This document shows, piece after piece, positions 1,677-56,327 of a stretch of 64,000 bases of DNA. The position numbers were made by a program, and so were the translations under genes. The stretch's first letter is position 1; each line of letters begins with the position of its first letter. Below the pieces are notes generated by a model. That model was not told where the DNA came from. It searched no databases and saw only the letters and a list, made by a program, of their open reading frames with translations. The stretch is taken from the NCBI RefSeq assembly GCF_032401055.1, contig NZ_CP135529.1, positions 2,666,001 through 2,730,000 of the forward strand, read 5' to 3'. This DNA comes from Tardiphaga sp. 709 (lineage in GTDB: Bacteria; Pseudomonadota; Alphaproteobacteria; Rhizobiales; Xanthobacteraceae).

Positions 1677-2570
1677 ATGGACTGGGACAAGCTGAAGGTG
1701 TTTCACGCGGCAGCGGAAGCGGGGAGCTTCACGCATGCAGGCGAGCAACTGGGCCTGTCGCAATCGGCAGTCTCACGACAGGTGAGCGCGCTGGAGCAGG
1801 AGCTGGCGGTCTCGCTGTTCCATCGCCACGCCCGCGGCCTGATCCTTACCGAACAGGGCGACCTGCTGTTCCGCACCGCCCATGATGTGTTCATGCAGCT
1901 CCAGGCGGCCCGCGCGAAGCTGACCGACAGCCGCGAGCGGCCGAGCGGCGACCTCAAGGTGACCACAACCCCGGGCGTCGGCATCAACTGGCTGATCCCA
2001 CGCCTTGGCGAGTTCACCGCGCTCTATCCGGAAATCCGCATTTCGCTGATCGTCACCGACGAGGAACTCGACCTGTCGATGCGCGAGGCCGATGTGGCCA
2101 TCCGCACCCGCAAGCCGACCCAGCCGGACCTGATCCAGCGCAAGCTGTTCGCCATGGGATTCCACGCTTATTGCTCGCCGGAATATATCAAGCATTTCGG
2201 CACCCCGCGCACCCTCGACGAACTCGACGGGCACCGCATCATCATGCTCAGCGACGCCCAGGTGTCCCCGCACCTGCAAAATCGCAGCTGGCTGATCGAT
2301 GCCGGGCGCAACGGCTCCGGCCCGCGCGAACCCTACTTCAAGGTCAACAACATTCTGGGCTTGATGCGCGCCTGCCAGCAGGGCTTGGGCATTGCAGCAT
2401 TGCCGGACTACCTGGTCGAAGAAAACGATCGCCTGGTTCAGCTCTTCAGCGAGTCGGACTCGATTCAACTCGACACTTATTTTGTCTATCCCGAAGAGTT
2501 GAAGACGGTGGCCCGTGTGCAGGTGTTCCGCGACTTCATCGTCAGCAAGGCACAGCGCTGGCCGTCCTAA
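1677..2570 (+). CDS. lsrB: LysR-type regulator of the LsrB/VtlR group
   Basis: LysR-family activator of 297 residues. It opens with a helix-turn-helix (HAGEQLGLSQSAVSRQVSAL) and continues into a substrate-binding-like effector domain. Its place directly behind trxB and the start MDWDKLKVFHAAAEAG match LsrB of Sinorhizobium and VtlR of Brucella/Agrobacterium. In those bacteria it responds to redox or envelope stress and activates small AbcR RNAs. I chose ATG 1677 because it gives the family-typical N-terminus; ATG 1641 overlaps the trxB stop and would add 12 residues. A likely sRNA follows immediately. The family call is firm; the LsrB/VtlR assignment rests on synteny and the N-terminal sequence. 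Confidence 0.88.
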   Translation: MDWDKLKVFHAAAEAGSFTHAGEQLGLSQSAVSRQVSALEQELAVSLFHRHARGLILTEQGDLLFRTAHDVFMQLQAARAKLTDSRERPSGDLKVTTTPGVGINWLIPRLGEFTALYPEIRISLIVTDEELDLSMREADVAIRTRKPTQPDLIQRKLFAMGFHAYCSPEYIKHFGTPRTLDELDGHRIIMLSDAQVSPHLQNRSWLIDAGRNGSGPREPYFKVNNILGLMRACQQGLGIAALPDYLVEENDRLVQLFSESDSIQLDTYFVYPEELKTVARVQVFRDFIVSKAQRWPS

Positions 2571-2669
2571 CCCGCAATATTTCAGGGCAGATATGCCCAC
2601 GCTTCCCAGCATGTCAGACATGCCAAGTGATGCGTTGCTGCATGCCACCTTCAGGGATCATACTTCTCA

Positions 2670-2808
2670 GACGCTGAGATTTTGCGCTGCGCATTTGTCC
2701 CCCTCCTCCAGTGGCGCGAAGTCTCAGTAATCCCTCTTGGAAGGTGATTGTGTCGGCCTCTCGAGGCCAATACCTCAGAGCCGGACTCGTTTGAGTCCGG
2801 CTTTTTTT
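2670..2808 (+). ncRNA. Probable AbcR-type (alpha-r15) trans-acting sRNA
   Basis: The 250-bp gap behind lsrB/vtlR ends in an unusually strong intrinsic terminator although lsrB stops 200 bp earlier, which suggests an independent transcript. A possible sigma-70 promoter is TTGCTG (2635-2640), 17 nt, TCATAC (2658-2663). The transcript would carry two unpaired pyrimidine motifs resembling anti-Shine-Dalgarno loops (CCCCCTCCTCC at 2699-2709 and TCCCTCTT at about 2731-2738), a small GGCCT/AGGCC hairpin and the terminator. In Sinorhizobium the AbcR1/2 sRNAs lie in the same place, next to lsrB. The 5' end is uncertain; identity is inferred from synteny and motif type. Confidence 0.6.
2779..2808 (+). 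terminator. Rho-independent terminator of the sRNA
   Basis: A perfect 10-bp stem (AGCCGGACTC / GAGTCCGGCT) with a GTTT loop is followed by a run of seven T. It ends 15 bp before the stop codon of the convergent copper ATPase. Confidence 0.92.
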
Positions 2809-2822
2809 GCGCCCGCGAATTG

Positions 2823-5204
2823 TCAGTCCAGCTTCACTTTCGCCAACCGGAGAGCATTCCCGATCACGCTCACCGAGGACAGCGCCATCGCGGCAGCACC
2901 GATCATCGGCGACAGCAGAATACCGAAAATCGGATACAGCACCCCGGCCGCGACCGGCACGCCCGCCGCATTGTAGATGAACGCAAATGTCAGATTCTGC
3001 CGGATATTGCTCATCACAGCCTTTGATAGTTCGCGCGCACGCACCAGCCCCATCAGATCGCCGGTCAGCAAGGTCACGCCGGCACTCTCGATCGCGACAT
3101 CGGTCCCCGTGCCCATGGCGATACCGACATCCGCAGCAGCCAGCGCAGGTGCATCGTTGACGCCGTCGCCAACCATGGCGACCCGGCGGCCTTCGCCGCG
3201 CAAACGCGTGACCACGTCACTCTTGCGCTCTGGCAACACACCCGCCTCGACCTCATCGATACCCAGTGTCTTTGCCACGGCCTTTGCCGTCGTCGCATTG
3301 TCGCCGGTGAGCATGACGATCCGCAGGCCGTCGGCACGCAGCTTCTTCAACGCATCCTGCGCCGATGGCTTCACCGGATCGGCAATCGCCATTACGCCGG
3401 CAACGCTACCATCGATGGCAACGAAGATAGCAGTCGCACCGTTCTGCCGCGCCAGTTCGGCGACGCCGTCGGAGCGCGTCGTATCCACTTTCAATTCGTC
3501 CATCAGCATCGCATTGCCGAGCGCAACGCGCTTGCCATTGACCACACCCGACGCGCCTTTGCCGGATGGCGAGGCGAAGTCACTGGCATCGCTCAGCGCC
3601 ACATTGCGTTGCTTTGCTTCATTGACGATGGCCTGCGCCAGCGGATGCTCGCTGGACCGTTCGATACTCGCAGCAAGTTGCAGAATGTTGCTTTCGTTGA
3701 AACCTTCCGCCGGCGAGATGCTCACCAGTTTCGGCTTGCCTTCCGTCAGCGTACCGGTCTTGTCGATCACAATGGTGTCGATGCTCTCCAGGCGCTCCAG
3801 CGCCTGGGCGTCACGCACCAGAATGCCGGCATGGGCGCCGCGACCGACGCCGACCATGATCGACATGGGCGTTGCGAGACCGAGTGCACAGGGGCACGCG
3901 ATGATCAGCACGGTGACCGCAGCAACAAGCGCAAACGAGAACCGCGGCTCCGGCCCGAAGGTCGCCCAGGCGATGAATGCAATCACCGCTGCGGCCAGCA
4001 CGGCCGGCACGAACCAGCCGGCGACACGATCCGCGAGACGCTGGATTGGCGCACGCGAGCGCTGTGCCTTGGCGACCATGTCGACAATGCGCGACAACAT
4101 CGTATCGCGGCCGATCTTGTCGGCCCGCAGCACGAGGCCGCCGCTCTGATTGACGGTGCCACCGATGACGCGCGCGCCTTCGGCCTTGCTCACGGGCATG
4201 GACTCGCCGGTCACCATGGATTCATCCACCGATGAACGTCCCTCGGTAACGACGCCGTCGACGGGAATTTTCTCGCCCGGCCTCACCCGCAGCAAATCGC
4301 CGATGGCAATGGCGTCGAGGGCGACGTCCTCATCACCGTCCTTGCCAATGCGCCGCGCGGTCTTCGGCGCAAGCCCGAGCAGCGCGCGGATCGCACCTGA
4401 CGTCTGATTGCGCGCGCGCAGTTCGAGCACCTGACCGAGCAAAACGAGCACGGTGATGACAGCAGCGGCTTCGAAATAGACCGCCACTGCACCGTGATGG
4501 TCACGGAACGCGTCGGGAAACAAACCAGGCGCGAAGGTGGCCACAACGCTGTAGACCCACGCCACGCCGGTACCCATGGCGATCAGCGTGAACATGTTGA
4601 GATTGCGCGTCACCACCGAGCGCCAGCCGCGTTCGAAGAACGGCGCGCCGGCCCACAGCACCACGGGCGTCGCCAGCACGAACGAGATCCAGTTCGACAT
4701 TGTCGGCGACACCAGCTGCATCAGGCCGAGATGTGATCCCATCTCCAGCACGAAGACCGGCAGGGTCAGCGCCAGCGCGATCCAGAAGCGCCGGGTCATG
4801 TCGATCAGTTCAGGATCTGGCTTGTCGTCGAGCGAGACCTGCTCCGGCTCCAGCGCCATGCCGCAGATCGGACAGCTCCCGGGTCCTTCCTGACGGATCT
4901 CCGGGTGCATCGGACAGGTATAGATGGTGCCGGCCGGCGCTGGCGGGGCGGGCTCCTTCGGCTTCAGGAAGCTTTCGGGATCGGCGTTGAAGCGCTCGCG
5001 GCATCGGGCACCACAGAAGAAGTATTCATGCCCCTGATAGATCAGGCGGTTCTTGGCGGTCGCGGGATCAACGGTCATGCCGCAGACCGGATCGAGCACT
5101 TTGGCCGACGCAGCCTCGTGATGGTGACCATGCGAACAGCATGCGCCATGCGTGTGACCGGCATGGGCATCATGCCCCGTATGCGTGTGAGTTGTCTCTG
5201 CCAC
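2823..5204 (-). CDS. copA: Copper-translocating P1B-type ATPase
   Basis: Inner-membrane ATPase of 793 residues that exports Cu(I). The N-terminus is His/Cys-rich ([16 protein letters not shown]), then comes a YHS-type metal domain ([10 protein letters not shown]) and a heavy-metal-binding domain with CPMHPEI and [10 protein letters not shown], in place of the usual CxxC HMA domains. The catalytic core shows the transmembrane CPC motif ([11 protein letters not shown], about 438), phosphorylation site DKTGTLTEG (about 478), TGES and the hinge [10 protein letters not shown] (about 680). It is divergent from a CsoR repressor, with a CsoR-type box between the two starts, so copper-inducible expression is expected. 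The CPC motif fits Cu(I), though Ag(I) is also possible. Confidence 0.95.
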
Positions 5205-11556: not shown

Positions 11557-11586
11557 ACAAAAGCCCGGGCTTGCGGCCCGGGCTTT
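11557..11586 (-). terminator. Intrinsic terminator of the first phasin gene
   Basis: On the minus strand the stem AGCCCGGG / CCCGGGCT is followed by CTTTTGTTT, 25 bp after the phasin stop codon. Confidence 0.8.
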
Positions 11587-11610
11587 CGATTATTTGGCGG
11601 TGCGATCGGC

Positions 11611-12045
11611 TCAGGCGGCCGGCTGGAACAGCTTCGAAGCGCCGGTCTTGATCGGTTCGGCGGTCTCGGAGGCGATCTTCTGGCCGAGTTCGGCCAGCTG
11701 TTTGGTCTGACCGGTGAAGGTTTCAACCTGGCTGCGCGCAAAAGCGGTCCACAGCTCCATCGCCTGCGACGGCGACTTCACGCCGATCAGCGACTGGGCG
11801 AAGTCGAAGCCCGCATTGGTGTTGGTCTTGGCAATGTCGAGCAGCTTGGCCGAATATTCGGCAGCGCCCTTGGTGGCCGTGCCGAACACAGCTTCAACCG
11901 TGCTGTTATGGGTCTCGGCAGCGTCCTTGAACTTGGCATAACCCTCGCGCGCCTGCGAGACGCCCTTTTCGGCGAACGCGCGGACCTGCTCCGGCACCTG
12001 GAACGGGATAACGGAAGATGAGAACGGATCGGTCGATTCGGCCAT
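11611..12045 (-). CDS. Phasin (polyhydroxyalkanoate granule protein)
   Basis: A 144-residue amphipathic helical protein of the Phasin_2 family that coats polyhydroxybutyrate granules. Typical segments are PFQVPEQVRAFAEKGVSQAR, an A/T-rich helix and the C-terminal MELWTAFARSQVETFTGQTK. The start at 12045 has GAAGG 9 nt upstream; an ATG at 12054 has no spacing. Two PhaR-type boxes lie 150-180 bp upstream, suggesting repression that is relieved when polymer accumulates. A second phasin gene lies directly upstream in the same direction. Confidence 0.92.
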   Translation of the reverse strand: MAESTDPFSSSVIPFQVPEQVRAFAEKGVSQAREGYAKFKDAAETHNSTVEAVFGTATKGAAEYSAKLLDIAKTNTNAGFDFAQSLIGVKSPSQAMELWTAFARSQVETFTGQTKQLAELGQKIASETAEPIKTGASKLFQPAA

Positions 12046-56190: not shown

Positions 56191-56327
56191 CGGATCGGAT
56201 CAACCGCGGGATCAAACCCGCATGTTTTGCAAAGTACGACTTTTAACAAGCACGTCCTGGCCCGGGCCCCTCTGGCAGTTCACCCGAACTGTGATGTCGG
56301 ACTGGACGTTCATACGGAGTGGCCCAC

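Follow-up and report, generated by a model that had tools for sequence, protein, structure and literature searches.

A Conserved Predicted sRNA Gene Behind lsrB in the Tardiphaga/Bradyrhizobium Branch, Very Probably a Divergent AbcR Orthologue

Gene Organization at the trxB-lsrB Locus

The window, i.e., the whole stretch of DNA that was analyzed, comprises 64,000 nucleotides. The chromosome is Tardiphaga-like, and the closest loci bearing a name, from Tardiphaga robiniae, encode an LsrB that is 100% identical. On the forward strand it encodes the thioredoxin-disulfide reductase TrxB (679–1644; TIGR01292, 413 bits vs. a cutoff of 343) and, directly downstream, the redox-related LysR-type regulator LsrB/VtlR (1677–2570; PF00126 and PF03466), whose frame may alternatively begin further upstream, at 1641. 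The order of these two genes is conserved in other families. A gene for a P-type metal ATPase converges on the gap behind lsrB from the opposite side and ends at 2823. Within this gap, at 2671–2808 of the forward strand, lies what is, judged from sequence comparison, a conserved, unannotated, single-copy and free-standing sRNA gene with its own predicted promoter and terminator. The predicted RNA of 138 nt is delineated by conservation, fold and covariation; its 5′ end at 2671 was placed according to the position of the −10 element, and a covariance model derived from other families (R2, see below) matches 2676–2808. The initial annotation had proposed an independent sRNA behind lsrB, which the conserved block and its predicted promoter and terminator support. 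Its span of 2571–2808, however, covers the entire gap through the terminator, and only approximately 2671–2808 corresponds to the RNA proper.

Two further elements were recognized in the window. An Lrp/AsnC-type regulator is encoded divergently from trxB on the reverse strand (1–444; PF01037, 64 bits; PF13404, 65 bits) and is truncated by the window start, and a terC cis-regulatory RNA (RF03067) is found at 56254–56309 of the forward strand (52.3 bits vs. a cutoff of 39.9).

Conservation and Structure of the Predicted RNA

To collect relatives' contigs, lsrB was used as bait and the best 80 of 364 loci were kept. All 80 of these, from Tardiphaga, Bradyrhizobium, Afipia and relatives, carry the C-rich block within 900 nt behind lsrB. 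A set of 92 loci was extracted from 100 that were scanned (the window and L001–L099), amounting to 60 distinct sequences with some genomes represented twice. The eight loci left out (L002, L005, L011, L013, L015, L017, L018, and L019) are not counter-examples, since they are stored as the minus strand and the scan covered the plus strand. Alignment of 47 clade loci (A2) served to build a covariance model (R1), which has a match in 192 of 195 genomes of a related genus (g45) taken for Bradyrhizobium; the three genomes that were missed are 93, 67, and 81% complete.

The fold of 2571–2812 has a z-score of −6.5, which was equaled by none of 200 shuffles. Within it, 2671–2808 is predicted to form, from 5′ to 3′, a long hairpin whose loop is C-rich, a linker that is likewise rich in C, a second and shorter hairpin, and the terminator. 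Stem-loop 1 (2673–2728, forward strand) corresponds to helix 1 of A2, in which 5 of 16 pairs are changed on both sides. Its anti-Shine-Dalgarno-like loop (2697–2709, forward strand; GUCCCCCUCCUCC / GTCCCCCTCCTCC) occupies the position of the AbcR motif M1 and is invariant across the 47 aligned loci at 2697–2708, i.e., in 12 of 13 bases including the 12-nt core GUCCCCCUCCUC, while 2709 is kept in at least 90%. A second C-rich motif (2730–2740, forward strand; AUCCCUCUUGG / ATCCCTCTTGG) lies in the linker at the position of the AbcR motif M2; 9 of its 11 bases are invariant in the same loci, and it aligns to GUUCCCCUCUGG of other families. The two C-rich motifs on which the sRNA had in part been proposed are nearly fixed. 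An extra small hairpin is predicted over the linker, without covariation. Short stem-loop 2 (2755–2768, forward strand; GGCC/GGCC) belongs to the predicted fold, and as all of its four pairs are invariant, it provides no covariation for or against pairing. In the terminator, helix 4, both sides are changed in 4 of 10 pairs. Stem 1 and the terminator vary among the 47 loci, in contrast to the core of the loop and the greater part of the linker, which are fixed.

Over all helices, 9 of 36 pairs are changed on both sides, compared to a mean of 3.6 in shuffles that retain the conserved columns. The share of paired cells is 97.8% vs. 96.2% in these shuffles and 29–50% in slid-partner controls. Helices 2 and 3 say little for or against the fold because they hardly vary. 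It is very improbable that the block instead codes for a small conserved protein: the C-rich run is preceded by a TTG or ATG in 91 of 92 loci and by a CTG in one, but the frame varies in length (11 codons in 66/92, 17 to at least 50 in the others) and the candidate start is enclosed in a strong hairpin, within its loop.

Predicted Promoter, Upstream Box, and Terminator

The predicted −35 element TTGCTG (2635–2640) and −10 element CATACT (2659–2664) are located on the forward strand. The CATA of the latter is invariant across the 47 aligned loci, and of the 92 extracted loci, 87 have the TTG hexamer 18 nt ahead of CATANN, two have it at 16 nt, and three show no match. A promoter scan did not return the 2635–2664 pair and its match to the consensus is weak, so that the promoter call is based on conservation; it is the conserved spacing that bears out the promoter-like pair noticed earlier. 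Further upstream, an inverted repeat of 15 bp, GCATGTCAGACATGC, lies at 2609–2623 (no strand assigned), 62 nt ahead of the predicted 5′ end, and is a predicted LsrB-binding box. It is present in 90 of 92 extracted loci, with all 15 bases in 84 and lacking the last C in six. For GCATGNCNGACATGC, the sole perfect match in the genome is 2609–2623.

The RNA ends in a predicted intrinsic terminator (2779–2808, forward strand) with a 10-bp stem (2779–2802), a GTTT loop and a run of seven T (2802–2808). Counted from the lsrB stop (2570), it lies approximately 208 nt downstream, and with the covariation of helix 4 it agrees with the strong terminator that had been described some 200 bp behind lsrB. 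A simple terminator scan did not report the 2779–2808 hairpin, probably as its stem finder runs the helix into the T run.

The position of this hairpin raises the question of whether the structure, directly behind lsrB and on the same strand, is merely the untranslated 3′ end of a trxB-lsrB mRNA with its terminator rather than a separate sRNA. We regard this as very improbable. Among the 65 distinct cases listed, the motif lies 91–302 nt beyond the lsrB stop, while the spacing of box, promoter and RNA is fixed and in all 90 loci that have it the box keeps a distance of 60–63 nt from the predicted 5′ end, which marks the block as a unit of its own. Moreover, a transcript end would account neither for the conserved promoter and box upstream of the RNA nor for the conserved loop and linker sequences, which termination does not need.

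Relationship to the AbcR Family of sRNAs

The initial annotation had suggested a search with the Rfam alpha-r15/AbcR model, and this was negative at the locus at every threshold tried. At the gathering threshold, searches of the whole window and of six relative loci with Rfam gave nothing at the sRNA, and ar15 (RF02345; membership bar 40 bits) had no match even at an E-value of 10 across the 601 bases of 2400–3000. The best ar15 match in the genome lies elsewhere and is at chance level (18.8 bits, E 0.55); the same threshold also gave matches in 12 of 14 control genomes. The plasmid collection yielded no match. With all of Rfam at E 10, 2400–3000 gave three sub-threshold matches, all resting on the terminator. 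The best of them was suhB/MmgR (RF00519; 20.4 bits vs. a cutoff of 41, E 0.09), whose likeness is confined to the 3′ half including the terminator, with nothing above the cutoff; a review describes alpha-r15 as partly homologous to SuhB (PMC7143759, excerpt).

The connection to AbcR becomes visible via intermediates. Of 297 genomes from the order that were searched with ar15, 20 gave a match above the cutoff and 66 a match reaching E 0.01. The weaker of these matches are intermediates, of which the aligned ones keep the C-rich loop and the linker GUUCCCCUCUG; one group continues with GGAAGGUGAUUG, at which place the window has AUCCCUCUUGGAAGGUGAUUG. Built from the clade only, R1 matches, at E ≤ 0.01, 25 of the 30 loci that ar15 gave in other lineages and has no match at the five strongest ar15 loci (L101–L105). 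Outside the two closest genera R1 gave 18 loci (L143–L160), of which 15 lie behind lsrB, and four of these 15 were also given by ar15. For the reverse direction, a second model (R2) was derived from 23 loci, all from other families, all on the ar15 list (E ≤ 0.01) and none from the clade; the Rhizobiaceae-type loci L101, L104, and L105 had been removed from the underlying alignment (A4) because their terminators were misaligned. The best R2 match in the 6.36-Mb genome is the locus in the window (40.3 bits, E 2.9e-7). R2 furthermore matches 10/10 clade loci and 6/6 further AbcR-type loci tried, including L101, L102, L104, and L105.

The second R2 match in the genome (L257; 23.6 bits, E 0.007) resembles a bare terminator. 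Together with a weak match at 11557–11700 it was considered as a paralogue and taken for chance, as both align mainly in the terminator. R1 finds a single copy and R2 a single good match, giving a copy number of one.

Gene order points in the same direction. Outside the two closest genera, ar15 and R1 gave 48 records (L101–L130 and L143–L160), in which four places occur twice. In 38 of them, i.e., 34 distinct places, lsrB lies on the same strand at most 1.5 kb upstream, and part of trxB is visible within the extracted stretch in 28 of these 38. The trxB-lsrB-sRNA order, for which Sinorhizobium had been named as precedent, hence holds in the window as well as in other families, and the available part of PMC3712013 describes the lsrB neighborhood of the S. 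meliloti sRNA.

Loci with strong ar15 matches were used for comparison with AbcR1/AbcR2 (RF02345) of Sinorhizobium, Agrobacterium, and Brucella. Both sides share trxB-lsrB/vtlR upstream, an LsrB/VtlR-type box at approximately −61 and the three-hairpin architecture of AbcR, with stem-loop 1 and its C-rich loop, a C-rich linker and the terminator hairpin, and the bridging model reaches both. They differ in length, predicted as 138 nt here vs. 114 and 121 nt in S. meliloti AbcR (PMC8844928), and in copy number, being one in this genome, whereas alpha-r15 of Rhizobiaceae/Brucellaceae is described as always multi-copy (PMC3712013, in part). Brucella AbcR acts through M1 CUCCCA and M2 GUUCCC (PMC5461406, excerpt), and the corresponding places in the window read CUCCAG and AAUCCC, so that both exact 6-nt motifs are altered with their C-rich character retained. 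Among AbcR-type loci of other families, L112, L120, L128, and L144 have the gene order, box position, C-rich loop and GCCGG terminator in common with the window, and L128 and L144 also the GGAAGGUGAUUG block. These four retain the linker GUUCCCCUCUGG and are found by ar15 at 28–44 bits, neither of which applies to the window sRNA.

The silence of ar15 and the alteration of both 6-nt motifs could also reflect an sRNA family of Bradyrhizobiaceae that is unrelated to AbcR, became established behind lsrB and came to resemble AbcR by convergence on C-rich anti-Shine-Dalgarno loops. We judge this improbable. The models match reciprocally via intermediates, gene order and box position are identical, and the run CCCUCU(U)GGAAGGUGAUUG, common to several intermediates, exceeds what an anti-Shine-Dalgarno function needs. 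In addition, neither ar15 nor R2 found a second, classical AbcR elsewhere in this genome. We conclude with high confidence that 2671–2808 is, by homology traced through intermediates, the orthologous AbcR-type sRNA gene of the Tardiphaga/Bradyrhizobium branch. The reciprocal matches with AbcR-type loci of other families and the shared upstream box thereby uphold the AbcR-like assignment made at first. Owing to the altered motifs, the single copy and the lack of any ar15 score, we call it a divergent AbcR orthologue and not an ar15 member.

Predicted Control by LsrB

In Sinorhizobium, the accessible part of PMC8844928 reports an LsrB-binding consensus GCAT-N3-TG-N3-T at −61 to −49 of the promoter PabcR1, binding of LsrB to PabcR1, and a more than 22-fold reduction of PabcR1 promoter activity upon deletion of the consensus box. 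Of the 92 clade loci, 86 contain the published consensus on one of the two strands; in the window this is the minus strand. A Brucella motif agrees with it on the opposite strand (PMC12595884, in part). At the other-lineage places the strict consensus is found in only 17 of 34. A loose box GCAT-N8-TGC, by comparison, is present 59–64 nt upstream of the RNA in 34 of the 34 distinct lsrB-adjacent places, against 98 of 7600 random 40-nt stretches from the same loci; this loose motif was picked after inspection of these loci, and the published consensus serves as the independent check. A statement by another group on LsrB (PMC7486931) counts against this reading. Taken together, control of the sRNA by LsrB via the predicted box at 2609–2623 appears highly likely from the comparison.

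Nine testable ar15/R1 records are without lsrB within 1.5 kb (L103, L106, L107, L115, L118, L123, L125, L152, and L160). The box at approximately −60 is absent in six of them and present in three (L103, L125, and L160; L125 counted once its 5′ end was taken from R1), and with three of nine carrying it, the box may also mark LsrB-controlled copies distant from lsrB. Within the genome, 23 sites match the box with one mismatch, of which 15 were examined as loci (L162–L176). Three of these 15 lie outside any frame of at least 120 codons (L168, L169, and L173). Three DUF1127 genes are VtlR targets in Brucella (PMC12595884, in part); a rough motif found no DUF1127-like frame beside the 15 one-mismatch sites. 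At L169 (G000:C1:1861783) a near-palindromic one-mismatch box overlaps the start of a frame that by eye resembles 5-formyltetrahydrofolate cyclo-ligase.

Proposed Mechanism and Target Pairing

The anatomy and the homology of the sRNA come from comparison, and every functional step is carried over from relatives. LsrB would bind the inverted repeat at 2609–2623 and activate transcription of the sRNA, which would probably act with Hfq and be stabilized by it; an hfq gene is present in the genome and the sRNA ends with seven T. The C-rich loop (2697–2709) and the linker motif (2730–2740) would then pair with purine-rich ribosome-binding sites. By analogy to relatives, the targets would largely be mRNAs of ABC-transporter substrate-binding proteins, whose translation would be lowered, and the uptake of nutrients would thereby be coupled to the state that LsrB senses. 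Overall, an AbcR orthologue that is activated by LsrB and acts in trans as a blocker of ribosome-binding sites, largely those of transporter mRNAs, is the likely identity of the sRNA. Considered by itself, the repression of transporters, which is drawn from analogy, is reasonably probable.

Pairing was compared between the starts of 51 substrate-binding-protein genes (52 with loci among 90 matches, less one fragment) and 285 controls. The linker pairs better with the former (p 0.003), and none of 60 shuffled segments was as extreme. Once Shine-Dalgarno strength and G content are taken into account, the difference is no longer significant (p 0.08), and the stronger Shine-Dalgarno sites of substrate-binding-protein genes account for much of the linker signal. 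The loop motif shows no clear difference, the p-value being 0.07 unadjusted and 0.58 adjusted, with 21 of 60 shuffled segments as extreme. These values are weakened by the choice of starts by Shine-Dalgarno score and by the transporter genes left among the controls. An earlier comparison with 46 genes of the window had given p 7e-4 for the linker vs. shuffled segments, a signal that shrank with the 285 controls. We consider it possible, though less than an even prospect, that AbcR in this branch is a distinct variant, with one copy, the invariant loop core GUCCCCCUCCUC and the linker seed AUCCCUCUUGG replacing GUUCCCCUCUGG, and that its targets are shifted from the Rhizobiaceae/Brucella set, with the LsrB switch and the gene order fixed.

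Previous Reports in Bradyrhizobium and Significance

One source associates alpha-r15 with Rhizobiaceae and Brucellaceae (PMC3712013, in part). In related bacteria, AbcR is known as an RNA that switches the uptake of nutrients. Large regulons of transport and metabolism are under the control of AbcR sRNAs in Sinorhizobium (PMC8844928), and in Brucella these sRNAs are important for virulence (PMC5461406, excerpt). For Bradyrhizobium, no AbcR is reported in the accessible parts of PMC7143759, PMC3927594, PMC5596092, PMC9957244, and PMC7685610. The conservation table in PMC7143759 includes a B. japonicum column, and PMC4842269 names BjrC174 and other BjrC RNAs (both in part). Rfam ar15 had no match at the Bradyrhizobium loci tried.

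It is conceivable, at somewhat less than even chance, that the gene is a true AbcR orthologue and that BjsR1 of B. japonicum USDA 110 is an earlier description of its homologue in Bradyrhizobium, in which case only the link to AbcR would be new. As described in the available part of PMC5082802, BjsR1 has an RpoD-type promoter, maps to position 1,134,665 of the minus strand and is conserved in Bradyrhizobium and Rhodopseudomonas; AbcR is absent from the main text of that article. Several genomes of the related genus that consist of one or few contigs carry the homologue found here on the minus strand at approximately 0.8–2 Mb, one of them at 1,134,008–1,134,144. Many genomes of this genus, however, have the homologue elsewhere or on the plus strand, and the agreement in position may be chance, the likeness being known from position and promoter and not from sequence. 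With the predicted gene read as a divergent AbcR orthologue, a known sRNA family is extended to a branch invisible to the standard model, so that ar15 needs extending, and soybean symbionts and their relatives gain a candidate global regulator with predicted activator, promoter and seed motifs.

At L050, and by eye at other Bradyrhizobium loci, a short frame MITKSCAANSKKGPHPGTSDFCAH with a GGGGACC repeat lies approximately 200 nt past the sRNA start. It precedes a frame of 302 aa that by eye resembles dihydrodipicolinate synthase, an arrangement that possibly represents a leader-peptide-controlled gene.
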